In this document: positions 3,122 to 18,914 of the stretch, piece by piece
How positions within the stretch are numbered: position 1 is the first letter of the stretch
Layout of the letters: every line of letters starts with the position of its first letter
IMG/VR virus record: IMGVR_UViG_3300030110_001274
Coordinates: 11,887-50,085 of that record
Length of the DNA: 38,199 nucleotides
DNA from: a virus
Direction: 5' to 3' (one strand)
The notes under the pieces: model-generated
The model's database searches: none
What the model saw: only the letters and a program-made list of their open reading frames with translations
Told to the model about the DNA's origin: nothing
Program-made: the position numbers and the translations under genes

Positions 3122-3577
3122 ATGGCTTTTGTACTTAACGATAGAGTTAAACAGACTAGTACGTCTACTGGTACAGGAACAATTAACTTAACCGGAACTG
3201 AAACAGGTTTCGAAACTTTTGTAACTGGAATCGGTGATGGTAATAGTTGTTTTTATGCTATAGCAAACGATGGAACTTCTGAATTTGAGGTTGGTATTGG
3301 AACAGTAACTGATGCGGCTACTGATACACTTTCAAGAACTACAATTATCTCCTCTTCAAACTCAGATAATGCTGTTAACTTTTCAGCTGGAACAAAAACT
3401 GTTTTTTGTACATACCCTGCAAAAAGAGCACCATCTGCAGCGATGACAGCAACTACATATGTTAATACACATTCAGCAACAATATCTGATACACAAACAA
3501 TGGAGTCTGGAGTTTTAGCAGGACCAGTAACAGTATCAGGTAGTGTTACAGTAACAGGAACGTTAGTAATTATATAA
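3122..3577 (+). CDS. conserved phage tail/fibre-associated structural protein
   Basis: A 151 aa protein preceded by AAGGA. The N-terminal 100 residues follow a recognisable phage pattern: an LNDRVKQTSTSTGTG opening, a GDGNSCFYAI strand, FEVGIGTV, then TIISSSNSDNAVNFSAGTK and an FCTYPA ending. The C-terminal tail (about residues 115-151) is a run of alternating Val/Thr/Ser, likely strands. In related phages this family precedes tail-fibre genes and is thought to be a collar-like adaptor domain, but no activity is known. It is joined to the first Ig-like gene by a TAATG overlap. Confidence 0.6.
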   Translation: MAFVLNDRVKQTSTSTGTGTINLTGTETGFETFVTGIGDGNSCFYAIANDGTSEFEVGIGTVTDAATDTLSRTTIISSSNSDNAVNFSAGTKTVFCTYPAKRAPSAAMTATTYVNTHSATISDTQTMESGVLAGPVTVSGSVTVTGTLVII

Positions 3578-4371
3578 TGAGTCAAATAGAAGTAGATAAA
3601 ATAATACCTCAATCTGGAACAGCATTACAAGCTGGTGAAAATGGTGATACAATTACAGTACCATCAGGCGCTACTTTAAATTTAACAAACGCTACAGTTA
3701 CATATCCAGATGGTTCTGTGCAAAACGTAGATCTTGCAAACTCTTCTATTACAATAAACGGATCAGCTGTATCTTTAGGTGGATCTGTTACAATTGGTGA
3801 AACAAAACCAACTATAGGAAGTATTAATCCAAGTGTAATTGAAAACACACAAACAGCTGTAACAATAACAGGAACAAATTTTATATCCGTTCCTACTGTT
3901 GAAGCAATTAGTTCCACAGGTGCAATTACAAGAGCAGACACAGTTTCTTTTACAAGTGCAACAACGATTGTTGCTAACTTTACTTTAGCCGTTGATGGCA
4001 CTTATTTTATTAGAGTTGAGAATAATGATGGTAATGCGGTAAGGTCATCCTCTGCATTATTAACGGTTTCAGACGCTCCAGCGTGGACTACAGGTGCTGG
4101 ATCTTTAGGATCAAATGCTGCAGGATCTTCAATTTCATATACAGTAGCAGCAACGAATGCTACTTCTTTTGCAAAAGTATCAGGAACTTTTCCTGGTGGT
4201 GTATCTATTAATTCAGGTTCAGGTGTGATATCAGGTACAGAGAGTGGTGCAACTTCAGAGACTACATATAGTTTCACTATTCGAGCAACTGACGCTCAGG
4301 GTCAAACGGCGGACAGAGCGTTTAGTATAACAGTAACAGTAGGAATTAATAACTCAGGACAGTTTAACTAA
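3577..4371 (+). CDS. Ig-like tail fibre protein, cassette copy 1
   Basis: First gene of the first receptor-binding cassette (264 aa). The N-terminal 40 residues show the marine phage fibre signature IEVDKI.PQSGT...GENGDTITVPSGA. Residues ~75-168 look like an IPT/TIG-type Ig fold (KPTIGSINPSVIENT, ITGTNF, ending LLTVSDAP). Residues ~175-264 look like a cadherin-like 'putative Ig' domain (FPGGVSINSGSGVISGT, then YSFTIRATDAQGQTADR). Paralogues lie at 6844-7662 and 10050-11231. Residues 133-168 are identical in sequence to the same positions of copy 2. Likely a fibre shaft or spacer protein; receptor binding is inferred. Confidence 0.7.
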   Translation: MSQIEVDKIIPQSGTALQAGENGDTITVPSGATLNLTNATVTYPDGSVQNVDLANSSITINGSAVSLGGSVTIGETKPTIGSINPSVIENTQTAVTITGTNFISVPTVEAISSTGAITRADTVSFTSATTIVANFTLAVDGTYFIRVENNDGNAVRSSSALLTVSDAPAWTTGAGSLGSNAAGSSISYTVAATNATSFAKVSGTFPGGVSINSGSGVISGTESGATSETTYSFTIRATDAQGQTADRAFSITVTVGINNSGQFN

Positions 4372-5759
4372 TGGCTAATACTTTTATTACAAAAACAACT
4401 GGAACATCTACAAATGTAGATAAATGTACTTTTTCTGCTTGGGTAAAAAGAGGAAATTTAAGTAGCTCAGATCATATACTTATGGGTCAATATACTGATG
4501 CCAATAATAGAGGAAAAATTTTAATCAGTGATAATCAACTTGCTTATTTTCAAAAAACAGGTGGCAGTACAACTGCTAATGCTAAAGCAACTAGACAATT
4601 AAGAGATACTAATGCTTGGTATCATATTGTTCTTGCTTTTGATTCAACTCAATCAACAGCAGCAGATAGAATAAAATTTTATGTTAATGGTGTTCAAGAA
4701 ACAGTATTTTCTAATACAGATTATGGAGCTCAAAACGAAAATGTTAGAATTAATGAAAGTTCAGTACCTATATTTATAGGACAAGATGGAAATAGTGCAC
4801 ATTATTTTGATGGTCAGATGGCGCATGTTCACTTTGTAGATGGAACAGCATACCCAGCTTCTACATTTGGCGAAACAGATACTACGTCAGGAATATGGAA
4901 ACCAAAAACTAATCCAACAGTTACTTATGGAAATAATGGTTTCTTTTTAAAATTTGAAAACAATGGTAATTTAGATTTAGATAGTAGTGGAAACAACTTA
5001 ACATTTTCTACATCAGGAGCACTAACTCAAAATACAGATACACCTAGTAATAATTTTTCTACACTTAATCCATTATTATGTGGTACAGGAACTGGAAATG
5101 ATGCTGCAGTTCATACTGCTGGTAGTACTAGAGTAGATGTTGGAAATAATGTTTGGAGAACAGTTACAAGTTCAGTTGCTTTACATTCAGGCAAATGGTA
5201 TTTTGAAGGATTTGGTACATCACAAGCATCAGCATATCAACATTATGGAATTACTTCTATAAACAAATTTGAACAAGACCAAACTATGCCTGACAAAGAA
5301 ATTAACGAAGAACAAAATGGTTATGCTTATGGTTATTATGGAAACAACGGACAAATTTATTATTCAACACCATCAGCAAGATCAAATGGAGCTTATGGAT
5401 CATCTTATGGTGCATCTGATTATGTAGGTATATTTGTAGATTTAGATAACAATAAATTATATGTTTCTAAAAATGGTACACTTGCAAATAGTGGAACAGG
5501 ATATGATATTAATGCTGCTGGAAAACCATATTTATTAGCTATGTCAGTTTATGGTGCAAATGCACAAATTAATTTTGGTTCAGGAACATTTGGATATTCA
5601 GGAACAAGTTATGCTAAATTAACTGGTACAACATATGCAGATGCTAACGGACATGGAGTATTTAAATATTCACCTAATCAAGGCGGTGCTGCTAACTTTG
5701 ACAGTGCAGCTAAAAACTTTTACGCATTAAACACTAAAAACATAAAGGAGTTTGGATAA
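4371..5759 (+). CDS. LamG + SPRY-like lectin-type tail protein, cassette copy 1
   Basis: A 462 aa protein with two recognisable beta-sandwich parts. Residues 1-200 are concanavalin/LamG-like: FSAWVKRG near residue 20, NAWYHIVLAFD near 80, an NGVQ turn near 105 and HVHFVDGTAY near 153. Residues ~250-455 look like a SPRY/B30.2 fold, with GKWYFEG near 274 and VGIFVDLDNNKLYVSKNG around residues 355-372. LamG and SPRY domains bind sugars or peptides, so surface glycan recognition is the likely role. Both neighbours are joined by TAATG overlaps. Paralogues lie at 7662-8990 and 11231-12628; this copy differs from the other two at its C-terminus. Confidence 0.7.
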   Translation: MANTFITKTTGTSTNVDKCTFSAWVKRGNLSSSDHILMGQYTDANNRGKILISDNQLAYFQKTGGSTTANAKATRQLRDTNAWYHIVLAFDSTQSTAADRIKFYVNGVQETVFSNTDYGAQNENVRINESSVPIFIGQDGNSAHYFDGQMAHVHFVDGTAYPASTFGETDTTSGIWKPKTNPTVTYGNNGFFLKFENNGNLDLDSSGNNLTFSTSGALTQNTDTPSNNFSTLNPLLCGTGTGNDAAVHTAGSTRVDVGNNVWRTVTSSVALHSGKWYFEGFGTSQASAYQHYGITSINKFEQDQTMPDKEINEEQNGYAYGYYGNNGQIYYSTPSARSNGAYGSSYGASDYVGIFVDLDNNKLYVSKNGTLANSGTGYDINAAGKPYLLAMSVYGANAQINFGSGTFGYSGTSYAKLTGTTYADANGHGVFKYSPNQGGAANFDSAAKNFYALNTKNIKEFG

Positions 5760-6841
5760 TGGCCTATATAACTTTTCAACCTAGAGATCATTTTAGAACA
5801 GTGCTTTATACTGGTAATGCTTCTAATGATAAAGCAATTACATATTCAGAAAGTACAAATATGAAACCTGATTTTGTTTGGATTAAAAGTAGAGCAAATG
5901 ATTCTTACGATCATATGCTATTTGATAGAGTAAGACAAGGTTCTGATTCTCAACCTTTTGATATAAGAGCTAATCAAAATAATGCACAAAGCACAGATAC
6001 TTCAGGATTAAAAACTTTTGATACTAATGGTTTTACTTTAAACAATGGTGGTTATGTAAATCATGCATCAAACTTTGTTGCTTGGACTTGGAAAGCTACT
6101 AATTCAGCAGGTTCAGCAAATAGTGATGGTAGTATTAGTTCTACTGTAGCAGCTAACACATCAAGTGGATTTTCAATAGTTAAATATACTGGAACAGGTT
6201 CAAATGCCACTATTGGTCATGGTCTTAATACTGCACCAAAAGCCATATTTGTAAAAAAATATAGCACAACACAATCTTGGAGATGTGGTCATGTAGGACT
6301 AGCTGGTACAAGTGGTTGGGATTATGGAAATAATTTAAATAATAATAGTGAAAGATACGATAGCGCTACTTACTGGCAAGATACAGCACCAACAACTTCT
6401 GTATTTAGTGTTGGAACAGATACTGAAGTTAATGGAAATGGTGCTACTCATATTGCTTATTGTTTTAGCGAAGTTAAAGGTATGTGTAAAATAGGTCAAT
6501 ATATAGGAAATGGTAATTCAAATGGTCCGTTCATACATACTGGATTTCAACCTGCTTTTTTATTAATTAAAAAAAGATCAGGTGGAACAGCTAGTTGGGT
6601 TATAACAGATAACAGAAGAAGTAATTCTTTTAACCCACAAGATAGACTTTTATTTCCTGATAATGGTGATAACGAAGATGGTTCAGGAGAAACTTATCAT
6701 TGGGATTTTTTATCAAATGGAGTTAAAATTAGAACAACATCAAACAGTTATGGTAATGGTAGTGGTCAAGCATATACATACTTGGCTTACGCAGAATTTC
6801 CTTTTGTAGCATCAAATGGAGATCCAGTAACAGCAAGATAA
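5759..6841 (+). CDS. tail protein with three internal GxxP...K units, cassette copy 1 (DUF7483-like)
   Basis: A 360 aa protein of a family common beside marine phage fibre genes (I believe DUF7483; unverified). It contains three related units, each with a Pro-containing turn and an aromatic strand ending in Lys: MKPDFVWIK, APKAIFVKK and GFQPAFLLIKK. A TGTGSNATIGHGL motif precedes the second unit, and a cytoplasmic-type IAYCFSEVKG precedes the third. The last residues, FVASNGDPVTAR, match the ends of the two paralogues. It closes cassette 1; the next gene begins 2 bases after its stop, unlike the overlapping junctions inside the cassette. A spike or fibre tip role is inferred. Confidence 0.65.
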   Translation: MAYITFQPRDHFRTVLYTGNASNDKAITYSESTNMKPDFVWIKSRANDSYDHMLFDRVRQGSDSQPFDIRANQNNAQSTDTSGLKTFDTNGFTLNNGGYVNHASNFVAWTWKATNSAGSANSDGSISSTVAANTSSGFSIVKYTGTGSNATIGHGLNTAPKAIFVKKYSTTQSWRCGHVGLAGTSGWDYGNNLNNNSERYDSATYWQDTAPTTSVFSVGTDTEVNGNGATHIAYCFSEVKGMCKIGQYIGNGNSNGPFIHTGFQPAFLLIKKRSGGTASWVITDNRRSNSFNPQDRLLFPDNGDNEDGSGETYHWDFLSNGVKIRTTSNSYGNGSGQAYTYLAYAEFPFVASNGDPVTAR

Positions 6842-6843
6842 TT

Positions 6844-7662
6844 ATGAGTGAAGTAAAAGTAAATAAAGTAAGTCCACGATCCGGAACAGGAGTTCAGCTA
6901 GGAGATGCTGGCGATACAATAACTGTACCAAATAGTGCAAACTTAACAGTTGGCGGTACACTCACTGCAACAACAGGTGGTGGAGTTGCAAACGCTGCTT
7001 TAGCAAACTCATCTATTACAATTAATGGATCTGCAGTTTCTCTTGGAGGATCTGTAACTATAGGTGAAACTAAACCAACTATTTCAGGAATTAGTCCATC
7101 AACAATAGAAAACACAGCGACTAACGTTGTTATCTCAGGAACTAATTTTGTATCGGTTCCACAAGTTGATGCGATCAGTTCTACAGGAGCTGTTACCATA
7201 GCTAACTCAGTTTCATTTTCAAGCGCTACATCTATTACAGCAAACTTCACTTTAGCTGTTGATGGTACATATTTTATAAGAGTTGAGAACAACGATGGTA
7301 ATGCTGTTAGAAGTTCATCAGCACTTTTAACTGTATCTGATGCACCAGGCTGGACAACAGGAGCTGGTTCGTTAGGAACAATAGCTGGAAACTTTTCAGG
7401 AACAGTTGCAACAGTAGCTGCTTCTGGTGACACAGTAACTTTTAGTGAAACAACATCTGTATTAACAAATGCTTCTCAAGCTAATTGTACTTTAAATTCA
7501 TCAACAGGTGTGATATCAACAACTGACTTTGGTGGTGCGAGTACAACGCCAACAACTTACAATTTTACCTTAAGAGCTACGGATGCTCAGGGACAAACAG
7601 CTGATCGAGCATTTAGTCTGACATCTAGCTTTGGAGCAACTGGAGGAGCACAATTTAACTAA
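6844..7662 (+). CDS. Ig-like tail fibre protein, cassette copy 2 (apparent chimera of copies 1 and 3)
   Basis: A 272 aa paralogue of the protein at 3577-4371. The N-terminal part (VKVNKVSPRSGT, GDTITVP, SSITINGSAVSLGGSVTI) follows copy 1, including 36 identical residues at 133-168. The C-terminal part (GSLGTIAGNFSGTVATVAA, QANCTLNSSTGVI, DFGGAST, LTSSFGA) instead follows copy 3 at 10050-11231 and is unlike copy 1. The final 'RATDAQGQTADRAF' stretch again matches copy 1. It therefore looks like a mosaic of the other two. It starts 2 bases after the cassette 1 stop. The role is as for copy 1: Ig-like shaft or spacer. Confidence 0.7.
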   Translation: MSEVKVNKVSPRSGTGVQLGDAGDTITVPNSANLTVGGTLTATTGGGVANAALANSSITINGSAVSLGGSVTIGETKPTISGISPSTIENTATNVVISGTNFVSVPQVDAISSTGAVTIANSVSFSSATSITANFTLAVDGTYFIRVENNDGNAVRSSSALLTVSDAPGWTTGAGSLGTIAGNFSGTVATVAASGDTVTFSETTSVLTNASQANCTLNSSTGVISTTDFGGASTTPTTYNFTLRATDAQGQTADRAFSLTSSFGATGGAQFN

Positions 7663-8990
7663 TGGCAACTAGATTAACAAGAGCAAATACAGCAGCAACT
7701 AACAGACAAAAATTTACTTTTTCTTGTTGGTTAAAAAGAGGAAAATTAGGAGCACAAGAAAACTTTTTTACTTCAATACATAATGGTTCAAATGAATTTC
7801 AATTTAGATTTGATTCTGATGATGTATTAAGATGGGTTGGTTCCATTAGTGGTAGTGCAGCAGGATTAATAAAAACAAATAAAAAATTTAGGGATATTTC
7901 AGCTTGGTATAATATTGTTATAGTTGGAGACACAACACAAGCAACAAATATTAATAGATTAAAATTATATATTAATGGAGTTCAAATTCCTGATGGTGAT
8001 CTTAATGGTCCAGGTTATCCAGGTCAAAATACTAATTTTGGTTTTGGAACTACAGATTATAACTTTGTTTTTGGCACAAGTTCTGCAACAGGAACAAATG
8101 ATCCATTTACTGGATTATTAAGCCATTGTCATTTCGTAGATGGTGCAACTTATCAAGCATCTACTTTTGGTTCTACGGATGCTACTACTGGCGAATGGAA
8201 AATAAATACTTCGCCTACAATTACTGAGTATGGAGCTAATGGTTTCTTTATGTTTAAAAATGATGCAAGTATAAATGATGATAGTGGAAAAGGTAATAAC
8301 TTTACATTATCAGGAACAATAACTCAAACAGAAGATTGTCCTGATAACGTTTTTGCTGTTTTTAATAGTTCAACATATCATTTTGTAAATCAATGGCAAG
8401 CTAACACAAATGCTAACACAACTGTAACTGGAGGTAGTGGAAGTGCTTGGAAAACTATTTTGACTACAATAGGTGATTCAAGTGGAAAGTATTATTTTGA
8501 AGCTAAACTAATATCAAGTGGGAGTGGTGCTATTATAGGTGCAGTAGATATAGAAGATGCAAGACAAAATTCTTCAAGTTCATGGTACATTGGTCAAAGC
8601 TCTACAGGTCAAGGTTATCAAAATAATGGTGCCAAAAGTAATGGTGGTGCATCTTTTGGAGCAACTTTTGCAAATGATGATATTATTGGTGTTGCTATGG
8701 ATTTAGATAATTCTAAAATTTATTTTCATAAAAACGGAACTTATCAAGATTCAGGAAATCCAACATCAGGTTCAACAGGCACAGGTGCTATGAGTTTAAC
8801 AGCAGATAAAACTTATGCATTTGCTTTGACAAGTTATGCAGGAACTGTTTGGAATGCTAACTTAGGCAACGGTTTTTTTGGAACAACTCAAATATCTTCA
8901 GAAGGAACTAACGCATCAGGTATCGGTAAATTTGAGTATGATGTACCAGCAGGTTACTCAGCTCTATCAACTAAAGGATTAAACGAATAA
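7662..8990 (+). CDS. LamG + SPRY-like lectin-type tail protein, cassette copy 2
   Basis: A 442 aa paralogue of 4371-5759 with the same domain order. LamG-like region: FTFSCWLKRG near residue 20, SAWYNIVIVGD near 87, YINGVQ near 107, HFVDGATY near 156 followed by STFGSTDATTGEWK. SPRY-like region: GKYYFEAK near 274 and IIGVAMDLDNSKIYFHKNG around residues 340-358. The C-terminal FEYDVPAGYSALSTKGLN is shared with copy 3 and not with copy 1, so copies 2 and 3 are the closer pair here. TAATG overlaps join it to both neighbours. Likely a sugar- or receptor-binding tail component. Confidence 0.7.
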   Translation: MATRLTRANTAATNRQKFTFSCWLKRGKLGAQENFFTSIHNGSNEFQFRFDSDDVLRWVGSISGSAAGLIKTNKKFRDISAWYNIVIVGDTTQATNINRLKLYINGVQIPDGDLNGPGYPGQNTNFGFGTTDYNFVFGTSSATGTNDPFTGLLSHCHFVDGATYQASTFGSTDATTGEWKINTSPTITEYGANGFFMFKNDASINDDSGKGNNFTLSGTITQTEDCPDNVFAVFNSSTYHFVNQWQANTNANTTVTGGSGSAWKTILTTIGDSSGKYYFEAKLISSGSGAIIGAVDIEDARQNSSSSWYIGQSSTGQGYQNNGAKSNGGASFGATFANDDIIGVAMDLDNSKIYFHKNGTYQDSGNPTSGSTGTGAMSLTADKTYAFALTSYAGTVWNANLGNGFFGTTQISSEGTNASGIGKFEYDVPAGYSALSTKGLNE

Positions 8991-10048
8991 TGGCATACAC
9001 AACAATAGATAAAAGCACTCTACACTTTAATACTAAACTTTGGACAGGAACAGGAAGTTCTAATGCAATAACGGGCGTTGGATTTCAACCGGATTTCTGT
9101 TGGGTTAAAATGAGATCTGGTTCAGAAAATCATTTTTTAACCAACGCAATACAAGGTGCAACTAAAATTATTCAATCAGACACTACTGCTGCTGAACAAA
9201 CATCTTCAAATGGTATGACAGCTTTTAATGCTGATGGATTTACAGTTAATACAGATACTGGTTTTAATGGTAGTGGCGATAATTATGTTGCATGGAATTG
9301 GAAAGCAAATGGTGCTGGTTCTGCTAATACAGACGGAAGCATAAATACAATTGCAACTTCAGTAAATACAACAGCAGGTTTTTCAATTTGTAAATGGACT
9401 GGTACTGGTGCTAACGCAACAATTGGTCATGGTTTGGGAGTTGTTCCTCAAACTTATTTTGTTAAAAATTTAAGTGCTACAAATGATTGGAATGTTTATC
9501 ATCATAACATTGGTAATACTCATAGATTATTTTTAAATACCACAGCAGGAGATGAAAATAATGATAGTGCTTTTAATGATACATCACCAACATCTACAGT
9601 TTTTTCAGTAGGCACAAACACTAATGTTAACCAAAGTGGCTCTACTATGATTGCTTTTGTATTCGCAGAAAAAAAAGGATATTCAAAGTTTGGAACTTAT
9701 AATGGTAACGGAAATGCTAACGGCCCATATGTCTACACAGGATTTAAACCAGCTTTTGTTTTATGGAAAAGAAGTGATAGTGCTAATGGTTGGATTTTAA
9801 TGGATAACAAAAGACCAACTGTAAACAGTGTGTCATACGACTCTAATCCTGTAAATTATTTATTAGAAGCACAAAGTAATGGTGCTGAAGCATCAGCTTC
9901 AAGTTATTATGTAGATTATTTATCTAATGGTTTTAAAGTAAGAAATACAAATAATGTATTTAACAATAATGGTGCAAAATATTTATATTGGGCATTTGCA
10001 GCAGCACCATTAGTAGGAAGTAACAACGTGCCATGCACAGCGAGATAA
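8990..10048 (+). CDS. tail protein with three internal GxxP...K units, cassette copy 2 (DUF7483-like)
   Basis: A 352 aa paralogue of 5759-6841. The three units are GFQPDFCWVK (near residue 33), GLGVVPQTYFVK (near 150) and GFKPAFVLWK (near 255). A TGTGANATIGHGL motif and the stretch TSPTSTVFSVGTNTNVN are shared across the family. The end, LVGSNNVPCTAR, matches the other copies. The start is a TAATG overlap with the LamG/SPRY gene; the stop is followed after 1 base by the first gene of cassette 3. No catalytic motif is visible. Tail spike or receptor-contact role inferred from context. Confidence 0.65.
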   Translation: MAYTTIDKSTLHFNTKLWTGTGSSNAITGVGFQPDFCWVKMRSGSENHFLTNAIQGATKIIQSDTTAAEQTSSNGMTAFNADGFTVNTDTGFNGSGDNYVAWNWKANGAGSANTDGSINTIATSVNTTAGFSICKWTGTGANATIGHGLGVVPQTYFVKNLSATNDWNVYHHNIGNTHRLFLNTTAGDENNDSAFNDTSPTSTVFSVGTNTNVNQSGSTMIAFVFAEKKGYSKFGTYNGNGNANGPYVYTGFKPAFVLWKRSDSANGWILMDNKRPTVNSVSYDSNPVNYLLEAQSNGAEASASSYYVDYLSNGFKVRNTNNVFNNNGAKYLYWAFAAAPLVGSNNVPCTAR

Positions 10049-10049
10049 T

Positions 10050-11231
10050 ATGAGTAGTATACTAAAAGTAGATACAATACAGGATCAAAACGGAAACCTA
10101 ATCATCAGTAAAGATTCTGGTGGTGCAGGTTTTGAAGGTACATATTATTCTTCAGCTAGTCCTAAAGTATTTACAGTTAAAGTTATTACTAAAACTGCAG
10201 CTTCACCTTATCATAATGTTGGAAGTACTCTTGGTTATGAAATAAATGGTGTTGAAACACCTATTATAGATTTAAAAGGTCATGATACATCTAAACCTTA
10301 TTACTATAAATTTGATCAATCAGATGCTTCAAACGCAACTCATCCATTAAGATTTTATAACAACGTTGGTAAAACAACTGCATACACAACTGGAGTAACA
10401 ACTTCAGGTACGCCAGGAAATGCAGGAGCACACACTACGATTGCTATCGATAACACAACACCAAATATTTTATATTATCAATGTTCTTCACATTCTAATA
10501 TGGGGAACTTTATTAATCACAATTCTACAAAATTAAACACAGGTGCATTTTTAACAATGCCTGCAACAGACGGTACAAATGGTCAAGCTATAACGACTAA
10601 CGGATCAGGTGTATTATCTTTTGCAACTGTAGAAGAAACTAAACCTACTGTAGCTAACGTAGCTCAAACAATTGCACCGGCAACAGGAGTGTCATTTAAT
10701 ATTACGGGCACAAATTTTTCTGGAATACCAAGAGTAGAATTTATTAAAACAGACGGAGGAGTTACAAACGCAAATACAGTTAGTTTAAGTAGTGCCACAA
10801 GTTTAGCTGTAAATGCAACATTAGCATTAGGTTCATATTATGTAAGAGTAGAATTAGAATCTGGATTAGCTGGTAGAAGTACAAATGCAATTATTACTGC
10901 ATCTACAGCTCCTACTTGGACAACAAATGCAGGTTCTCTTGGAACAATAGCTGGTAACTTTTCAGGCACAGTCGCAACAGTTGCTGCAACTTCAGATTCA
11001 ACAATAGCTTATTCTGAGACAACAAACGTATTAACAAACAACTCACAAGCTAATTGTACTTTAAATTCTTCTACGGGTGTGATAACTACTAGTGACTTTG
11101 GTGGAGCAAGTACGGTACCAACAACTTATACATTTACTTTAAGAGCCACGGATGCCGAAGCACAAACTGTAGACAGAGTGTTTACATTAACAAGTTCATT
11201 TGGAGCAAGTGGATCAGGAGGATTCCAATAA
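10050..11231 (+). CDS. tail fibre protein with cupredoxin-like and Ig-like domains, cassette copy 3
   Basis: At 393 aa this is the longest of the three Ig-like paralogues because it carries an extra N-terminal domain. Residues ~38-155 look like a cupredoxin: a strand FTVKVITK, a histidine in ATHPLRF (His98), and a C-terminal loop YYQCSSHSNMG providing Cys145, His148 and Met151. The C-x2-H-x2-M spacing equals that of amicyanin, a type 1 copper protein. Residues ~195-285 are the IPT/TIG-like domain (EETKPTVANV, NITGTNFSGIP). The C-terminus shares TIAGNFSGTVATVAA and the LTSSFGA ending with copy 2. A fibre component is likely; copper binding is predicted from the ligands alone. Confidence 0.7.
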   Translation: MSSILKVDTIQDQNGNLIISKDSGGAGFEGTYYSSASPKVFTVKVITKTAASPYHNVGSTLGYEINGVETPIIDLKGHDTSKPYYYKFDQSDASNATHPLRFYNNVGKTTAYTTGVTTSGTPGNAGAHTTIAIDNTTPNILYYQCSSHSNMGNFINHNSTKLNTGAFLTMPATDGTNGQAITTNGSGVLSFATVEETKPTVANVAQTIAPATGVSFNITGTNFSGIPRVEFIKTDGGVTNANTVSLSSATSLAVNATLALGSYYVRVELESGLAGRSTNAIITASTAPTWTTNAGSLGTIAGNFSGTVATVAATSDSTIAYSETTNVLTNNSQANCTLNSSTGVITTSDFGGASTVPTTYTFTLRATDAEAQTVDRVFTLTSSFGASGSGGFQ

Positions 11232-12628
11232 TGCCTAGTACATATTTACATAAAAATCAGGGAACACCAACAAATGCAAAAAAATTTACAGTATCTTTCT
11301 GGTTTAAAAGAGGTATCATTAGTACAAGTTCAACTAACTATACAACAAGATTATTTCAAGGTTACAAAGATGGTAATGATAGACTCTATGTAAAACTTGA
11401 TAATGATAATAAACTTATGATTTTCGCAGCAGAAGGTGGAACTGACAGAGTAAATTGGGTAACAAAAAGACAATTTGAGGATCCGAATGCTTGGTATAAT
11501 CTGGTATTAGTAGGAGACTCAACAGAATCAACAGAAGCTGATAGAATAAAAATGTATATTAATGGAGTTAATATAGATAGCTTAGGTGGATATACAAAAA
11601 ATACTACTAACATAACTCAAAATATGGATTGGGGTATTCAATTAGCACAAACTAATAATACTTTTACAATCTCAGGAAATGAAAGTCATGGTGAATTATT
11701 TGATGGATGTATATCACATTTTCATTATATAGATGGAACAGCTTACCAAGCATCTACTTTTGGTTCAACAGACGCAACGACTGGTGAATGGAAAATAAAC
11801 GTCAATCCTACTGTAACTTATGGAACTAATGGTTTCTTAATCTTAAAAGATGGAAACACAATTACAGACCAATCAGCTAATTCTAATAATTGGGCGATAG
11901 GTGCAGGATCACTTTTAGATAATAAAGATAGTCCAAGTAATAACTTTTGTACTTTAAATTCTTTAGACAAAGCACCAATGTCTAATGATCCTTTACAAAA
12001 CAAAATGTTTAATGGTAATCTTTATGTAAGTTTAGATAGCAACATTAAAAATTTAGCAAGAGGCACTTTAGGTGTAACTGCTGGTAAATGGTATTGGGAA
12101 GCTAAAGTAGAAACTAAAGGAAAAGGATTTTACGGAATTTGTAATAGACTCGCTCTTGAAAGCACTTCTGCTCCACATGATAATAGTGCTTACACAGGTA
12201 TATATTATTATGACGCAACACCAGACTTTAGATACTATTCTGGTGCAACAAGCACAACAGGTATAGCAAGTGTTGCTAATGGGGATATTTTAGGTTTTGC
12301 ACTAGATATGGATAACAAAGCACTTTATATTCATAAAAACGGAACATATATGAATAGTGGAGATCCTACTTCAGGTTCATCTAAAACAGGTGCTATTAGT
12401 GAATTGTTTTCTTATTCTACTAACTGGGCAGACTATGGTGAAGTATTTCCTTCTTTTTATGTTTCATCAACTTCAGGAGCCGGTGCAGCATCATTTAACT
12501 TTGGTAATGGATTTTATAGAACAACTGCTGTATCATCAGCACAAAACCCTGATGATGGAATAGGTGTATTCGAGTATGATGTACCTGCTAATTATAGAGC
12601 AATAACAACTAAAGGATTAAACGCATAA
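11231..12628 (+). CDS. LamG + SPRY-like lectin-type tail protein, cassette copy 3
   Basis: A 465 aa paralogue of 4371-5759 and 7662-8990. LamG-like region: FTVSFWFKRG near residue 20, NAWYNLVLVGDSTEST near 93, YINGV near 115, HFHYIDGTAY near 163. SPRY-like region: GKWYWEAKVE near 284 and ILGFALDMDNKALYIHKNG around 355-374, then MNSGDPTSGS. It ends in FEYDVPANYRAITTKGLN like copy 2. TAATG overlaps join both neighbours. It is likely to bind a surface glycan or protein of the host; the variable loops between the conserved strands are where the three copies differ most. Confidence 0.7.
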   Translation: MPSTYLHKNQGTPTNAKKFTVSFWFKRGIISTSSTNYTTRLFQGYKDGNDRLYVKLDNDNKLMIFAAEGGTDRVNWVTKRQFEDPNAWYNLVLVGDSTESTEADRIKMYINGVNIDSLGGYTKNTTNITQNMDWGIQLAQTNNTFTISGNESHGELFDGCISHFHYIDGTAYQASTFGSTDATTGEWKINVNPTVTYGTNGFLILKDGNTITDQSANSNNWAIGAGSLLDNKDSPSNNFCTLNSLDKAPMSNDPLQNKMFNGNLYVSLDSNIKNLARGTLGVTAGKWYWEAKVETKGKGFYGICNRLALESTSAPHDNSAYTGIYYYDATPDFRYYSGATSTTGIASVANGDILGFALDMDNKALYIHKNGTYMNSGDPTSGSSKTGAISELFSYSTNWADYGEVFPSFYVSSTSGAGAASFNFGNGFYRTTAVSSAQNPDDGIGVFEYDVPANYRAITTKGLNA

Positions 12629-13680
12629 TGGCTTATACTACAGTTAATAAATCTACAGATTATTTTAATACTAAACTTTATACAGGAACAGGAAGCACTA
12701 ACGCACAGACAGGCATAGGTTTTCAGCCTGATTGGGTCTGGATTCAAAACAGAGGAGGAACATACGCAAACATATCTGTGGACTCTGTAAGAGGAGCAAC
12801 AAAATTGCTTGAGCCACAAGGAACAGGACAAGAAGCAACAGTAGCAAATTCATTAACAAGTTTTGACTCTGATGGATTCACTCTTGGAGCAGATAGTAGT
12901 AATTATTGTAATAAAAGTTCAAATAATTACGTTGCTTGGAATTGGAGAGCAGGTGGTGCAGCTTCAGCTAATTCATCAGGCACTATAAGTTCAAGTGTAT
13001 CTGTAAATACAACAGCAGGATTTAGTGTTGTTTCTTATACAGGTACTGGTTCAGCGGGTGCAACAGTAGGTCATGGTTTAGGCGTAGCGCCTGCAATGAT
13101 AATTGAAAAAGCAAGAACTGTTACAGATGATTGGTTAATTTATCATCAATCAATTGGAAATACACATGGCCTGGCGTTAAATAACACAACTGCTCAAACT
13201 GATAGTGATACTTATTTTAATGATACTTCACCAACTTCAACTGTATTTAGTTTAGGTAATAATGGAAAAGTTAATACAAATGGTGGAACTCATATAGCTT
13301 ACTGCTTTGCAGAAAAAAAAGGGTTTTCAAGATTTGGACAATATCTTGGTAATGGTAATACCGATGGTACATTTGTTTATACTGGTTTTAGACCAGCTTT
13401 TGTTTTGGTAAAAAAATATTCTGCTACTGAAAGTTGGCAAATAACAGACCACCCAAGAGATGTAAATGTAGCTCCAAATTATGCAAGAGTTTTAGCAAAT
13501 GATGGTTCTTCTGCAGAAGCTACAAATACTACTTGGGCTAAAATACAAAAAGCTTCTAATGGTTTTAAATTATGTCATACCGATGGAGTTATTAATGCCT
13601 CAGGTTCAACATACATCTATATGGCATTTGCAGATGCACCATTAGTTGGATCAAATGATGAGCCATGTAAGGCAAGGTAA
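12628..13680 (+). CDS. tail protein with three internal GxxP...K units, cassette copy 3 (DUF7483-like)
   Basis: A 350 aa paralogue closing cassette 3. The units are GFQPDWVWIQ (residues ~31-40), GLGVAPAMIIEK (~150-161) and GFRPAFVLVKK (~253-263), with YTGTGS before the first two. The block TSPTSTVFSLG and the IAYCFAEKKGFS segment are shared with the other copies, and it ends LVGSNDEPCKAR. The first unit has Gln where the others have Lys, and the second has Glu-Lys. Its stop is followed by a 3-base gap before the 22-residue-repeat gene. Tail tip or spike function is inferred. Confidence 0.65.
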   Translation: MAYTTVNKSTDYFNTKLYTGTGSTNAQTGIGFQPDWVWIQNRGGTYANISVDSVRGATKLLEPQGTGQEATVANSLTSFDSDGFTLGADSSNYCNKSSNNYVAWNWRAGGAASANSSGTISSSVSVNTTAGFSVVSYTGTGSAGATVGHGLGVAPAMIIEKARTVTDDWLIYHQSIGNTHGLALNNTTAQTDSDTYFNDTSPTSTVFSLGNNGKVNTNGGTHIAYCFAEKKGFSRFGQYLGNGNTDGTFVYTGFRPAFVLVKKYSATESWQITDHPRDVNVAPNYARVLANDGSSAEATNTTWAKIQKASNGFKLCHTDGVINASGSTYIYMAFADAPLVGSNDEPCKAR

Positions 13681-13683
13681 CCC

Positions 13684-14355
13684 ATGTTCTTTGGTGTTAC
13701 GTCCTTCTCAGCGGCACCTTTTAGTGCTGAAGGTTTTAGTCCAAATGCCTTTGTAAACATACAAGGCGTTCGATTAAATGTTTCAATAGGCAACGTAGAC
13801 GTAACAGCTCCATTAGATATATCTGTAACTGGTAATCAATTAAACATATCTACAGGCAGTCCAACTGTAATAGCAAAAGCAGTACAAGTATTAACTGGTA
13901 GTAGATTAAATGTTGCTACAGGAACAGCAGAAGGTAGAGCACCAAGAGATGTTCCAGTAACTGGTAATAGATTAAATATTTCTAAGAATGGTGTAACAGC
14001 ATTCGGTAAAGCTACCGTCTTACCAACAGGAGTAGGATTAGAAACATCCATAGGTGATATAACTGTAATAGGTAAAGCTAATGTAACTTTATCTGGAAAC
14101 AGATTAAATATATCTATTGGTAATCCTACTATTAAGGCAAACGCTACAGTAGTTATATCAGGCAATAGAATGAATATTACAACAACTCAATTTGGACAAG
14201 GTGCACCTGTTCCATTTACGGTAAAAGCTGCAGCTAAAATTAACTCTACAAATGGTCTAAATAGTAATAGATTAAATATAAGTAATTCACCGGTAGACTT
14301 TAGAATATGGACTCAAGTAGACCCTAACGCAGAACAGAATTGGAATAATATATAA
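13684..14355 (+). CDS. structural protein built of 22-residue repeats
   Basis: A 223 aa protein. An N-terminal cap (MFFGVTSFSAAPFSAEGF) is followed by repeats keyed on R-L-N at residues 30, 52, 74, 96, 118 (degenerate), 140 and 162, each exactly 22 apart, with a further RLN at 196. Each unit reads roughly GNRLN(I/V)S.G...V.AKA.V..T, which suggests short paired strands as in a beta-solenoid or beta-prism fibre. The C-terminus carries W209, DPN 213-215 and W220. The next gene is a short paralogue with the same cap and ending. Such proteins occur in tail regions of marine phages; the function is unassigned, a fibre or spike shaft is inferred. Confidence 0.7.
   Translation: MFFGVTSFSAAPFSAEGFSPNAFVNIQGVRLNVSIGNVDVTAPLDISVTGNQLNISTGSPTVIAKAVQVLTGSRLNVATGTAEGRAPRDVPVTGNRLNISKNGVTAFGKATVLPTGVGLETSIGDITVIGKANVTLSGNRLNISIGNPTIKANATVVISGNRMNITTTQFGQGAPVPFTVKAAAKINSTNGLNSNRLNISNSPVDFRIWTQVDPNAEQNWNNI
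13771..14232 (+). repeat. seven 66-bp (22-residue) coding repeats
   Basis: Repeat units begin at 13771, 13837, 13903, 13969, 14035, 14101 and 14167, a perfect 66-base spacing. Protein sequence is conserved (RLN(I/V)S or a close variant); DNA is only partly conserved, so the units are not recent copies. One unit (14035) has lost the motif (GLETS). Confidence 0.8.
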
Positions 14356-14606
14356 TGTTATTTGGAGCAACACCTTTTGCAGCAACAACTTTCGCCGGCG
14401 TAGGCGCACAAAATATAGTCTTTTCTGTTACTGGAAATAGGCTAAATGTATCAATAGGTAATGCCACAGCAGGAATTGAGTATCCTGTGGTTATTACAGG
14501 CAAAAGAATTAACCTTGCCACAGGCAGTGTTTCTGTGGTATCTTGGGATCCTATAGATCCAAATGTAAATAGAACATGGACACCTATAGATCCGCTTAAC
14601 CCGTAG
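14355..14606 (+). CDS. short paralogue of the 22-residue-repeat protein
   Basis: An 83 aa protein starting at a TAATG overlap. It has the same N-terminal cap as its neighbour (MLFGATPFAATTFAGVG), two repeat units (GNRLNVSIGN and GKRINLATGS, Arg29 and Arg51, again 22 apart) and the same C-terminal signature W64, DPN 68-70, W75, with the two Trp eleven residues apart as in the larger protein. It looks like a two-repeat version of the upstream gene, made by duplication with loss or gain of repeats. Probably a fibre or tail-tip component; it may co-assemble with the longer protein. Confidence 0.65.
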   Translation: MLFGATPFAATTFAGVGAQNIVFSVTGNRLNVSIGNATAGIEYPVVITGKRINLATGSVSVVSWDPIDPNVNRTWTPIDPLNP

Positions 14607-14613
14607 GAGAATT

Positions 14614-15345
14614 ATGGCATCAACATATAGTAGTAATTTAAATTTAGAATTAATAACAACAGGTGAAAAAGCTGGTACTTGGGGTACTATTACTAACGCA
14701 AATTTACAACAATTAGAGCAAGCATCATCAGGCTATATAGCAATAGCTGTGGGTGGATCAAATGTTACATTATCAATATCTCAAGGAGCTACATCTAATG
14801 GTAAAAATTTATATCTTAAATTAACAGGCACTCTTGTAGCTAATAGACAATTAATAGTACCTGACAATTTTGAAAGAGTTTATATTATAGAAGATGCTAC
14901 AACTAGAGGAAGTGGTGCTAACTTATATACATTAACAGTTAAAACAGCTTCTGGAACAGGCGTTGTATTAGCAGCTGGATCTACATCTATAGTTTATTCT
15001 GATGGCACAAATATAAATAAAGGTATGATATCACAAGGTTGGTTTACACCAACTGGTAATTATACAGCAGTTGCTGGAGATCAATTATTTGTAAATACTT
15101 CTTCAAGCGGAATTAACGCAGCAGCAACAATGACACTACCGGCAACACCTGCAGTTGGTGATCAAGTAACAATCGTTGACAGTGGTAACTTTGCTGCATC
15201 AAACAACATAACTATTGGTCGTAACTCATCTAATATAAATGGTGCTGCTAGTGATTTAGTAATTAATGCTAACAGTGCTGCTTTTACTTTAGTCTATGCA
15301 AACGCGACTAGAGGTTGGGTCTACAAAACGACCAAAATATCATAG
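14614..15345 (+). CDS. conserved phage tail/fibre structural protein
   Basis: A 243 aa protein with an AGGAG ribosome binding site. The N-terminal signature STYSSNLNLELITTGEKAG followed by TWGTITNANLQQLEQA is familiar from a large family of phage tail-region proteins, annotated variously as fibre or structural protein. The middle is beta-rich (NLYLKLTGTL, YIIEDATTRG), and the C-terminal half carries repeated G/N/S-rich strands ending RGWVYKTTKIS. No enzyme motif or membrane segment is seen. The location next to the repeat proteins and the hub protein supports a virion role. Confidence 0.65.
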   Translation: MASTYSSNLNLELITTGEKAGTWGTITNANLQQLEQASSGYIAIAVGGSNVTLSISQGATSNGKNLYLKLTGTLVANRQLIVPDNFERVYIIEDATTRGSGANLYTLTVKTASGTGVVLAAGSTSIVYSDGTNINKGMISQGWFTPTGNYTAVAGDQLFVNTSSSGINAAATMTLPATPAVGDQVTIVDSGNFAASNNITIGRNSSNINGAASDLVINANSAAFTLVYANATRGWVYKTTKIS

Positions 15346-15353
15346 GAGCAACA

Positions 15354-17273
15354 ATGGCTCTTAAACAAGTCAAATTTTTACCTGGAGTTGATAAACAAAA
15401 CACAACGATTGGAGCAGTCGGTCGTTGGGTTGATTCTGATAATGTTAGATGGAGATATGGATTACCAGAAAAAGTTGGTGGTTGGTCTTCTATATTAACT
15501 TCTACTTTAGTAGGTGTTGCAAGAAAACAACATGCATACACAGACTTAGAAGGAAATAGATATATTATTATTGGAACAGATAAATTTTTAATAGCATACT
15601 TTGAAGGTGAAGTTTATGATATTACACCACTTAGAACAACTTTAACATCAGCTACAATTGCAACAACAAATAACTCAGCTACTTGTACAATTACAAAAGC
15701 TACACACGGATTATCTATTGGAGACATTGTACAATTAGATTCTGTAACACTACCCGGTGGTACAGGATATAGTAATTCTGATTTTGAAGATAAATACTTT
15801 CAAGTTATAACCGTTCCTACTACAGGCACATTTACAATTACACAAACTAGTAATGCAGGTGCAACTGTATCTACTGGTGGTAGTTTAAGTATAAAATGTT
15901 TACAATCTATAGGTCCAGCAGAACAATCATATGGTTATGGTTGGGGATTAGAATCTTGGAACACAGGAGGATTTGGTAGTGCTGCTTCTGCATCTAATGT
16001 AACACTAGAACCAGGTTTATGGTCACTAGATAACTTTGGTGAAGTGTTAGTTGCAACTATATTAAATGGTAAAACATTTACTTGGAATGCTGGAGATGCA
16101 GCTAGATTTACAACAAGAGCATCTACTACAACATCTAACTTTCCTACATCAAATAATCCAACAGCTACAAGATTAACTTTAATATCACCAACAACAAGAC
16201 ACTTAATTCATTGTGGTACAGAAACAACAATCGGAACAGATTCAACTCAAGATGATATGTTTATAAGATTCTCTAATGCAGAAGATATAAACACTTATGA
16301 TACATCAGCTATTAACACAGCAGGTTCACAAAGATTACAAGATGGCACAAAAATTATGGGTGCATTAAAAGCAAAAGAAACAATTTTAATTTGGACAGAC
16401 AATGCACTTTATACAATGAAAACTGTAGGAGCTCCATTTACATTTGGTTTTGAACAAGTAGGTACGAACTGTGGATTAATAGGTCAGAACGCAGCTGTAG
16501 AGATAGACGGCGTTGCATATTGGATGAGTCCTAATGGTTTCTTTTTATTTGATGGTACAGTTAAATCTTTAGAATGTTCTGTAGAAGATTATGTTTATGA
16601 TGATATTGAATCTACAAAAGGACAACAAATTAATTGTGGTTTAAATAATTTATATACAGAAGTAGTTTGGTATTATCCTAGTTCAGGAGAAGATTTTAAT
16701 GATAGATATGTAGTTTATAATTATGGAGAAACAGCTACTAGTAAAGCAACTATTTGGTACACAGGAAATGAAGCTAGAACAACATGGCTTGACGCTTCTG
16801 TATATCCTAAACCATATGCAACTAAATATAGCTCAAGTACAAATGGTACATTTCCAGTGGTTAGAGGCATAACAGGATTAGGTGGTACAACACTATTTGA
16901 ACACGAAACGGGAACCGATCAAGTTAATGCTGACGGTAGTAAAACAACAATTACTTCTTTTGCTAAATCATTTGATTTTGATATTAAAACAGAAGAAACA
17001 GATGGTGAGTTTTTCTTATCATTAAAAAGATTTATTCCGGACTTTAAAAATATACAAGGTAATGCTAAACTAACACTAGCAGTAAAAAGATTTCCATCAC
17101 AATCTAGTACAAATACTGCATTAAGTCCGTTTACTATTACATCTAGTAGTCTTAAATTTGACACAAGAGCTAGAGGACGTTATGCAAATATAAAGATAGA
17201 AAATGATGCAGTTAGTGAAACATGGAGATTTGGAACAATTAATTTAGACTTAAGACCGGACGGTAGAAGATAA
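15354..17273 (+). CDS. tail hub / packaged-DNA stabilisation protein (P22 gp10-like)
   Basis: The frame is open further upstream, but the ATG at 15354 follows an AGGAGCAAC ribosome binding site placed just after the previous stop, giving 639 aa. The N-terminus (LKQVKFLPGVDKQNT, then GRWVDSDNVRWRYGLPEKVGGW) is the hallmark of phage stabilisation proteins related to P22 gp10, which form the tail hub under the portal and hold packaged DNA in. The remainder is a beta-propeller-like succession of strands (YIIIGTD, EVLVATILNG, HLIHCGTET, ILIWTDNALYTM, YWMSPNGFFLFDG). It is joined by TAATG to the following gene. Confidence 0.7.
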   Translation: MALKQVKFLPGVDKQNTTIGAVGRWVDSDNVRWRYGLPEKVGGWSSILTSTLVGVARKQHAYTDLEGNRYIIIGTDKFLIAYFEGEVYDITPLRTTLTSATIATTNNSATCTITKATHGLSIGDIVQLDSVTLPGGTGYSNSDFEDKYFQVITVPTTGTFTITQTSNAGATVSTGGSLSIKCLQSIGPAEQSYGYGWGLESWNTGGFGSAASASNVTLEPGLWSLDNFGEVLVATILNGKTFTWNAGDAARFTTRASTTTSNFPTSNNPTATRLTLISPTTRHLIHCGTETTIGTDSTQDDMFIRFSNAEDINTYDTSAINTAGSQRLQDGTKIMGALKAKETILIWTDNALYTMKTVGAPFTFGFEQVGTNCGLIGQNAAVEIDGVAYWMSPNGFFLFDGTVKSLECSVEDYVYDDIESTKGQQINCGLNNLYTEVVWYYPSSGEDFNDRYVVYNYGETATSKATIWYTGNEARTTWLDASVYPKPYATKYSSSTNGTFPVVRGITGLGGTTLFEHETGTDQVNADGSKTTITSFAKSFDFDIKTEETDGEFFLSLKRFIPDFKNIQGNAKLTLAVKRFPSQSSTNTALSPFTITSSSLKFDTRARGRYANIKIENDAVSETWRFGTINLDLRPDGRR

Positions 17274-17689
17274 TGGCAAAACCTTTAAAAATATCAGAAG
17301 AAGCAGCAGTACAAATGCCAATGAAAACGGTTGCTAGTTTAATTGCAATGGTAGCAATTGGAACTTGGGCATATTTTGGTTTACACGAAACGCTCAATCA
17401 GCACTCAACAACTATTGAATTAATGTCAAAAGATCTTGATCAAAACACAGAGTTTAGAATTAAATACCCAAGAGGACAATTAGGTAAATCATCTGGCGAA
17501 GCGGAACTTTACATGTTGGTGGAGGATCTTTATAAGTCTGTAGATCGTTTGAATAAAGCTATTGAAGACGGTATGCACAACAAAGTTAATATTGAATTTT
17601 TACAAAAACAAGTAGAAAAAGCTACTAATGATATTGAAAAATTAAAAGACAGACAAAGAGAGTTTGCAAACGGTAAGGACAAACATTAA
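17273..17689 (+). CDS. small membrane-anchored coiled-coil phage protein
   Basis: A 138 aa protein with one membrane segment at about residues 17-37 (MKTVASLIAMVAIGTWAYFGL) and a long charged helical remainder ending in a likely coiled coil (residues ~80-135). The sequence KPLKISEEAAVQMPMK and the conserved FRIKYPRG motif mark it as a family that recurs in marine phages in the tail region. The function is unknown; a membrane-anchored role in DNA entry or lysis is conceivable from the topology. TAATG overlaps join it to both neighbours. Confidence 0.65.
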   Translation: MAKPLKISEEAAVQMPMKTVASLIAMVAIGTWAYFGLHETLNQHSTTIELMSKDLDQNTEFRIKYPRGQLGKSSGEAELYMLVEDLYKSVDRLNKAIEDGMHNKVNIEFLQKQVEKATNDIEKLKDRQREFANGKDKH

Positions 17690-17994
17690 TGAGAACATAT
17701 TATAAATCAGGCGGTAGATCAGAAAACCCAATATCAAGAAATAAAAAAAATTACAGATCTACAAAATCAGGTGCAGGTATGACAAGAGCTGGTGTAGCTG
17801 CATATAGAAGAGCTAACCCAGGATCTAAATTAAAAACAGCTGTAACTGGTAAAGTTAAAAAAGGATCTAAAGCAGCTAAAAGAAGAAAGTCATATTGTGC
17901 AAGATCTTTAGGACAATTAAAAAGATCATCTGCAAAAACTAGAAATGATCCTAACTCTAGAATACGACAAGCTCGTAGAAGGTGGAAGTGCTAA
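17689..17994 (+). CDS. small basic phage protein (DUF6321-like)
   Basis: A 101 aa protein that is very rich in Lys, Arg, Ser and Gly. The core GAGMTRAGVAAYRRANPGSK followed by TAVTGK and KRRKSYCARS resembles the DUF6321 family seen in cyanophages and other marine phages; it ends ARRRWKC. The high positive charge suggests nucleic-acid contact, perhaps with packaged DNA, but no function is established. It starts at a TAATG overlap with the membrane protein gene and ends in another TAATG. Confidence 0.65.
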   Translation: MRTYYKSGGRSENPISRNKKNYRSTKSGAGMTRAGVAAYRRANPGSKLKTAVTGKVKKGSKAAKRRKSYCARSLGQLKRSSAKTRNDPNSRIRQARRRWKC

Positions 17995-18914
17995 TGGGAT
18001 TTTTACAACTAACACCTGAAAATATAGCTCAAGCTAAAAGTTTAAGTTACCCTGAAGCTTTTAAATTAGATAGAACGTTAGGATATAACCCTAATTTTAA
18101 AGGAGGTGTAAACCCTATAAAATATGCATCAGAAGGTATAAAAAGTATTTTTGGTTTTGGTGATCAAAAAATAGGTGGCGCTACTCCACTTACAAGAAAA
18201 ATAGCTTTAGATGCTATGGATTTTGGTAAAAAAGGAATTAATTTTGCAGGTAAAGTTTTATCAAAAGCATCACTTCCTTTTTCTATTCTTATGCCAACAG
18301 AATTAGGTTCTGCTATACCAACTAAAGAAGAAAGAGAAAAAATGATGGGTATTATGAATTCTAAAATATTAGATGATTACTACACAAAAGGAGAACTTTA
18401 CGAAATTGATGACAGTAATAAAATACCAGGATTTAGAGACAAAATAGAAGGTGGAATTGACACTTTAAAAGATAAACTAGGATCTGTTGGAGATTATATA
18501 AAAGGTGGTGGTATTATGGGTCAAGTATTACAAGGTATAGGTGACATGTTTCAATACAAAGGTGGTATTGGATATGTAGACGAAAATGGTAATTTTATAA
18601 GTGCTGAAGATATAGACAAACAAAATGCAAGAGGTGGTTATTATACAGATGCAGCAAGAGCTTCTAGAAGAAGAGATAAAAGTATTGCAAGATTTAGAGC
18701 TAGAGGTGCTGATGAAACAAAAGGAAGATTTGCAGAATTATTAAAACTACAACAAGCAGAAGAAGCAGCAAGAGTTGCAGCTGAAAGAGCTAAGTTAGAT
18801 GCATACTTTAGAGGTTTTGAAGCTAGTGGTGGAGATTCATCAAACAGATATGATGGTGCTGATTCTTTTGAACAATACTCAGCAGAACCAACAGCATATT
18901 CAGGAAGTAGTTAA
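17994..18914 (+). CDS. putative internal virion/structural protein, unassigned
   Basis: The ATG at 17994 is chosen because it forms the usual TAATG overlap with the previous stop; an in-frame GTG 12 bases upstream is less likely. The product is 306 aa. It starts MGFLQLTPENIAQAKSL and has Gly-rich helical stretches (residues ~35-100) that could be amphipathic, a Gly/Met-rich segment IKGGGIMGQVLQGIGDMF, and a highly charged Ala/Glu/Arg coiled region at about residues 215-270. No enzyme motif is found. Its position at the head of the internal-protein block suggests a virion protein; I do not recognise the family. Confidence 0.55.
   Translation: MGFLQLTPENIAQAKSLSYPEAFKLDRTLGYNPNFKGGVNPIKYASEGIKSIFGFGDQKIGGATPLTRKIALDAMDFGKKGINFAGKVLSKASLPFSILMPTELGSAIPTKEEREKMMGIMNSKILDDYYTKGELYEIDDSNKIPGFRDKIEGGIDTLKDKLGSVGDYIKGGGIMGQVLQGIGDMFQYKGGIGYVDENGNFISAEDIDKQNARGGYYTDAARASRRRDKSIARFRARGADETKGRFAELLKLQQAEEAARVAAERAKLDAYFRGFEASGGDSSNRYDGADSFEQYSAEPTAYSGSS

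Follow-up and report, generated by a model that had tools for sequence, protein, structure and literature searches.

Several receptor-binding proteins on one virion, with conserved N-termini and exchangeable receptor-binding parts, are known from the branched tail-spike complex of Ackermannviridae, in which each spike is one protein and the spikes are linked by gp10-like XD/TD domains (PMC11414711). In the pelagiphage Skadi-1, a hypervariable region (13,646-15,713) comprises two open reading frames (ORFs), one of which encodes a structural protein with a lectin domain, and recruitment among relatives of Skadi-1 is low in the same region (PMC10504331). Here, we describe a stretch of 38,199 nucleotides (nt) from the IMG/VR virus record IMGVR_UViG_3300030110_001274 (positions 11,887 to 50,085; the whole stretch is referred to as the window), in which a cassette of three genes, encoding an Ig-like protein (I), a LamG+SPRY protein (L) and a DUF7483 protein (T), is present three times. 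Comparison with ~15 relatives makes it likely that these cassettes specify three keyed fibre sockets with exchangeable L-T lectin tips. This pattern of conserved sockets and swapped tips is new beyond an earlier reading of the window that was made from the letters and predicted ORFs alone (the sequence-only reading).

Other described phages share parts of this arrangement. Like the window, Skadi-1 and other HTVC010P-type pelagiphages encode a tail fibre followed by L and then T, but they carry a single L-T copy. In HTVC204P of this type, the I domain is the C-terminus of the long tail-fibre gene, ahead of L and T, whereas I is a short separate gene in the window; this fusion is consistent with I being the virion-proximal part. 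HTVC103P, cultured on SAR11 HTCC7211, has two complete I-L-T cassettes as in the window, but it is a different phage type with a one-gene phrog_2295-type fibre between them. HTVC023P, HTVC027P and 023Pt_psg01 have the nearest backbone (46-65% identity in the downstream gene g19); HTVC023P and 023Pt_psg01 share the flanking gene order and have three to four tandem fibre genes, some with N-termini of the kind found in I1 and I2, but the fibres of all three phages are single-gene and phrog_2295-type, with no I, L or T. Proteins of phrog_19943 (cyanophage and metagenome-assembled genome; phages C72C1 and S-B68) have the same domains in the same order, but as one long polypeptide.

The nine cassette ORFs of the window are all open, each with an ATG start, and their order is I-L-T three times over between 3577 and 13680, exactly as the sequence-only reading had it. 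We refer to the three positions as slots 1 to 3, to the N-terminus of I1 and I2 as a-type and to that of I3 as b-type. The genes and their borders are as follows (aa, amino acids).

3577-4371, plus strand: I1, putative socket protein of slot 1, 264 aa; a-type N-terminus and C-terminal He_PIG (Ig-like) domain (PF05345, 44 bits)
4371-5759, plus strand: L1, LamG + SPRY lectin-like protein of slot 1, 462 aa; PF13385 (58.7 bits), PF00622 (30.5 bits), phrog_27411
5759-6841, plus strand: T1, DUF7483, three-unit beta protein of slot 1, 360 aa; PF24299, 321 bits
6844-7662, plus strand: I2, putative socket protein of slot 2, 272 aa; a-type N-terminus, 65% identity to I1, same-slot clustering
7662-8990, plus strand: L2, LamG/SPRY protein of slot 2, 442 aa; phrog_27411, 1e-79
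8990-10048, plus strand: T2, DUF7483 protein of slot 2, 352 aa; PF24299, 384 bits
10050-11231, plus strand: I3, putative socket protein of slot 3, 393 aa; b-type N-terminus of ~170 aa, then the shared Ig-like part
11231-12628, plus strand: L3, LamG/SPRY protein of slot 3, 465 aa; phrog_27411, 2e-76
12628-13680, plus strand: T3, DUF7483 protein of slot 3, 350 aa; PF24299, 401 bits
399-3577, plus strand: upstream conserved virion genes g2-g6, left border of the fibre slots; order the same in relatives, g4 being a phrog_10775 tail protein
13684-17273, plus strand: downstream conserved genes g16-g19, right border; order the same in relatives, g19 being a phrog_3287 virion structural protein

T1 to T3 match DUF7483 (PF24299) over nearly the full-length profile at 321-401 bits, against a curated cut-off of 27. 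L1 exceeds the Pfam cut-offs for both Laminin_G_3 and SPRY; L2 and L3 score just below the SPRY cut-off of 26.3 bits (25.7 and 26.0, respectively), with no LamG match listed for either, and phrog_27411 matches all three L proteins over their full length (1e-76 to 1e-79 for L2 and L3). Identity between paralogues is 38-41% for L1-3 and 45-52% for T1-3, I1 and I2 are full-length paralogues (65%), and I2 and I3 are 56% identical across their common part; by these sequence comparisons, the homology of the cassettes is far beyond chance. Three full copies, as first proposed, hold for L and T, whereas I3 departs from a simple third copy: what it has in common with I1 and I2 is limited to its C-terminal ~210 residues, and its N-terminal ~170 aa are unrelated to theirs. 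With copies that differ by 35-62%, triplication as a recent event is not supported.

TAATG overlaps are present at every I/L and L/T junction of the window, and the gaps between cassettes are 2 and 1 nt, with 3 nt after the third. The sequence-only reading took these junctions as a sign that the cassette behaves as a unit; the junctions are real but do not show this by themselves, because neighbouring genes overlap likewise (g2/g3, g3/g4 and g6/I1), and it is comparison across phages that shows it. The same gene order and junctions recur in one to three copies, and among 46 loci of bacterial genome assemblies about 25 have L and T within one ORF, which bears out three parallel sets of lectin-like proteins acting as cassettes. 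These fused ORFs, which mark L and T as a unit, often have ~800 residues, about as many as the two genes of the window encode together. L and T are also fused, with tandem T, in phages C72C1 and S-B68, and phrog_19943 covers LamG, SPRY and DUF7483. Single ORFs of L262, L265, L284-L294 and L087 (numbers of this kind denote the compared loci) contain DUF7483 in tandem, sometimes ahead of L. Loci L284-L294, mostly contigs of Patescibacteria/Candidate Phyla Radiation (CPR) genomes, encode large proteins with up to ~12 tandem DUF7483 matches per ORF, which suggests that DUF7483 is also a repeat in surface-type proteins of these bacteria.

The AlphaFold2 model of T3 has a predicted local distance difference test score (pLDDT) of 87.6 and a predicted template modelling score (pTM) of 0.89. 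Its fold has no match in PDB at E <= 0.001; the viral models that match it closely seem to be relatives of DUF7483 (28-45% identity), and T has a weak profile match to the CanA cannula protein (E 0.01). The I3 model (mean pLDDT 75) is a string of beta-sandwich domains; its matches to Ig-like chains such as titin and cadherin have low TM-scores and indicate nothing more specific than such a string, and the I3 N-terminus has no significant match in a PDB sequence search. Residues H98, C145, H148 and M151 of I3 (C-x2-H-x2-M; window 10341-10502) are invariant in 27 of 27 aligned sequences, a set which we take to resemble type-1 copper (cupredoxin) ligands; searches of PDB gave no confirmation of such a fold.

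Profiles for I, L, T and the two I N-termini were run over ~250 loci, with contig sets made up of the best 80 matches per search. Within these sets, 13 contigs other than the window have the order aILT-aILT-bILT with the same flanking genes (the contig end truncates the first I gene of L043), and four more (L092, L096, L103 and L135) carry a pair of a-type cassettes and then a truncated b cassette. When whole contigs were searched for the family, exactly three DUF7483 genes were found in 14 of 24 contigs and four in none; this count includes L046, whose three cassettes have I proteins without the a or b N-termini. The source record (50,085 bp) contains exactly three as well. An assembly artefact is an unlikely origin of the triple, because contig L001, identical to the window over the matched gene, carries the same triple and many relatives have the same layout. 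The arrangement, for which the sequence-only reading named no described parallel, is not unique, given the same a-a-b triple in at least 13 other viral contigs and two cassettes in the cultured HTVC103P; searching marine viral contigs for one-, two- and three-copy versions, as had been proposed, showed the cassette in one to three copies. In another triple-cassette contig with the layout of L094 (L106, IMGVR_UViG_3300002231_000347), several of the nine frames are split, probably through sequencing errors rather than decay.

The gene order g2-g6, fibre slots, g16-g19 is common to the window and its relatives, and the content of the slots differs. Another kind of fibre occupies slot 1 in L005, L111, L122, L130, L132, L136 and L137 and slot 2 in L131, and I-L-T is restricted to slot 3 in L124 and L134. 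HTVC023P and 023Pt_psg01 have three to four one-gene phrog_2295-type fibres at the same place, and the order in HTVC103P is I-L-T, phrog_2295 fibre, I-L-T. Since relatives hold different fibre kinds in any of the three positions, the conserved feature is three fibre positions rather than three copies, and I-L-T is one of several fibre types that fill them. The same layouts bear on the alternative that the nine proteins form one compound heteromeric fibre, stacked or branched, with I3 as the base and I1 and I2 as branches. The long, different N-terminus of I3 alone and the last place of I3 in the a-a-b order would suit such a fibre, and Ackermannviridae are known to have branched complexes in which one member is the anchor (PMC11414711). 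Nevertheless, slot 3 holds I-L-T beside slots 1 and 2 of other kinds in L124 and L134, and the two sets of HTVC103P are separated by a one-gene fibre; each set can therefore do without the other two, even if they could share a hub, and we consider a compound fibre unlikely.

The three genes of the cassette differ sharply in how they follow the slot. On trees of 13 triples, the number of slot changes is 5 for I (shuffled mean 19.2), 7 for L and 15 for T (shuffled mean 18.9, with 5 of 200 shuffles as low); as judged from these trees, I tracks the slot and T as a whole is nearly random. Among 59 same-slot pairs in which I is at least 85% identical, the median identity is 0.88 for I, 0.48 for L and 0.49 for T, and the median synonymous divergence (dS) is 0.43, 0.79 and 0.92, respectively. 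Because identity falls and synonymous divergence roughly doubles at the I/L border, L and T were replaced by recombination. Positive selection as the sole cause of tip diversity was considered and is disfavoured, because synonymous sites jump too.

Individual pairs show the same borders. I1 of the window is 90-92% identical to slot-1 I of L093, L101 and L092, and its DNA matches that of the close relative L093 at 90% through I1 to 4461, at 89% over 9923-11242 (the end of T2, the whole of I3 and the start of L3) and at 89% from 13618 on, with scattered weaker matches only elsewhere over the L and T genes. In the pair L094/L097, the DNA just downstream is 98.6% identical, and in slots 1 and 3 dS is 0.06-0.08 for I versus 0.86-1.04 for L and T. 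Slot 3 of L109 and L111 (I 97%, L 51%, T 100% identical) indicates that L was replaced alone. Across slots, T of L097 slot 3 and T of L096 slot 1 are 94% identical, and the slot-1 tip of L094 and the slot-3 tip of L097 match at 78% of nt; tips have therefore moved between slots.

These results leave little room for neutral duplication with ordinary divergence, that is, three redundant drifting copies without exchange or special use. The copies are indeed paralogous and 38-65% identical, as expected under this scenario, but all nine frames are intact in the window and in most relatives, I is conserved by slot, dS jumps at the I/L border and tips move between slots, so that we give it hardly any credence. 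Nor is it probable that T (or L) is a fibre assembly chaperone instead of a tip part. Fibre genes are often followed directly by a chaperone gene. In Alteromonas phage A5, the cognate chaperone of the fibre may also cap it (PMC10579305). T, however, is among the most diverse parts and is exchanged, unlike a general chaperone, and DUF7483 occurs in tandem and sometimes ahead of L within single ORFs; a chaperone role is accordingly rated as quite improbable.

Tip variety could also be made by programmed diversification, through a retroelement or invertible DNA. In the cultured phage HTVC200P (L089, MH598801.1), an L gene lies between inverted repeats of 58 nt that are 95% complementary (8232-8289 and 9765-9822), with arms that consist of the L end and T start and a T gene outside each arm, these outer T genes being on opposite strands; a flip of L could join it to either T, a possible invertible tip switch. 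No inverted cassette genes are found in the other loci, and the 50,085-bp record of the window, which may be incomplete, has no reverse transcriptase (PF00078), serine recombinase or tyrosine integrase. As the general source of tip variety, such a mechanism is highly improbable.

The regions that carry slot identity were mapped by a windowed permutation test of same-slot versus different-slot identity on an alignment of 14 triples, with residues numbered as in L3 and T3 from the start of the profile match. Same-slot excess runs throughout I (z 7-13) and is found in L at ~151-255 (z 7-12), at the L C-terminus (z 4.6-8.5) and at the T C-terminus (z 7.6); it is weak at the N-terminal ends of L and T, and none was detected by this test in the LamG core (76-150), in SPRY (271-405) or in T 31-315. 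The corresponding blocks of the window are as follows.

4800-5114, plus strand: slot-specific middle block of L1 (position-specific signal)
8094-8405, plus strand: slot-specific middle block of L2 (position-specific signal)
11687-12001, plus strand: slot-specific middle block of L3 (same-slot 0.55 versus different-slot 0.45, z 11.6)
12452-12622, plus strand: slot-specific C-terminal block of L3 (z 7.7)
13573-13677, plus strand: conserved slot-specific C-terminal tail of T3 (z 7.5; conserved DNA relative to L093 resumes at 13618)

Trees built by part give the same division: against ~20.4 changes in shuffled data, only the L middle (7 changes) and the last third of T (12) track the slot, and no tracking is seen in LamG (18), SPRY (18) or the first and second thirds of T (19 each). 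When phage pairs with close sockets are removed, same-slot identity in L 151-255 still exceeds different-slot identity (0.523 versus 0.452, z 9.4), and there is no signal in L 256-405 (z 0.2) or T 111-215 (z -1.2). Simple linkage fails to explain the signal in the L middle, because an unlinked LamG block separates it from I in the DNA, and contact of this segment with the socket would be the natural inference from the sequence pattern. The Skadi-1 record has T at 13353-14408, L at 14408-15730 and the tail fibre upstream at 15783-18185, so that its hypervariable region spans nearly all of L and most of T and spares the C-terminal end of T, as the slot map predicts.

Under the reading that we favour, each phage would have three kinds of tail fibre, each built from the three proteins of one cassette, and all three sets would be present in the virion. 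The N-terminus of I would fix the fibre to one of three virion positions, and its Ig-like C-terminus would hold a tip made of L (two lectin-like sandwich domains) and T (the three-unit DUF7483 beta protein). The tip would touch the host, presumably at carbohydrate receptors, through LamG and SPRY of L and through most of the length of T. The middle segment of L would be keyed to the socket, as would the C-terminal ends of both tip proteins. Recombination would act at the conserved borders (I/L, L/T and T/I) and swap either tip gene or both, among phages and at times between slots, leaving the sockets unmoved; the division into three genes is what would permit L and T to be exchanged independently. 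A virion with three different tips would have several ways of matching a host surface that varies, probably the SAR11 surface, and the earlier suggestion that the three sets may serve different types of host surface is plausible. Only tentatively, and with some doubt, do we extend this to a scheme in which virion position is encoded by I together with blocks inside L and at the L and T ends, alternating with lectin blocks that pass freely from phage to phage and between the three sockets, to give a combinatorial set of three tips per phage population.

Several points weigh against this picture. Taken whole, L groups by slot (7 changes), which means that some parts of the tip are not freely exchangeable. 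The ratio of nonsynonymous to synonymous divergence (dN/dS) is raised in L and T (~0.6 versus 0.19 in I), yet below 1. The signal at the T C-terminus may reflect linkage instead of contact, because this block borders the next I gene. The contig sets are not a census, the host is judged from relatives, and we infer the virion presence and binding of all nine proteins.

With respect to known systems, the window has a conserved anchor and a tip replaced by recombination, as in other multi-fibre phages, and its virion gene order around the fibre slots and homologous g19 place it with HTVC023P-type pelagiphages. In contrast to the one-protein spikes of Ackermannviridae, the parts of its fibre would be encoded by three genes, and a sequence-profile test found no gp10-like match for I1-I3 in Pfam or PHROG at E <= 0.1; the system thus appears to lie outside the Ackermannviridae-type family, although it would work like conserved-anchor, exchangeable-tip systems. 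New relative to these are the division of the cassette into three genes, the a-a-b set of slots and tips that move from slot to slot. Searches of an open-access library for LamG+SPRY phage fibres and for cupredoxin in fibres returned no paper on this arrangement.

The upstream part of the record encodes an SU10-type portal, a capsid protein and a GroES-like gene. The g19 protein is 65% identical to that of 023Pt_psg01, 47% to that of HTVC023P and 46% to that of HTVC027P, and the host is likely SAR11, because HTVC023P and HTVC027P grow on SAR11 HTCC1062. Single-cell genomes of Pelagibacteraceae also include contigs bearing T, on which L and T are separate genes. Next to the slots, g16 and g17 (window 13684-14606) are adjacent and have internal repeats of the type VTGNRLNISIGN that match between both genes; g16 also has a weak match to a carbohydrate-binding domain (Cthe_2159), below the cut-off. 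Farther along, a ferredoxin-family gene (phrog_3704) is located at 37358-38008, downstream of the DNA polymerase.

Few bacterial groups in the sea are as abundant as SAR11, and we found no account of a receptor for these phages. If correct, the proposed organization would name the genes with which a large group of SAR11-type phages reads the host surface and would separate the parts that read it (LamG, SPRY and T 31-315) from those that hold the fibre (I, the L middle, and the L and T ends). It would make these phages a clear case in nature of receptor-binding tips that move from one fibre position to another, and would assign DUF7483, a domain without a close solved structure, its first role. 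It also offers an in-sequence marker of receptor-tip change that can be tracked in metagenomes, and suggests a modular way for these phages to keep up with a changing host surface.

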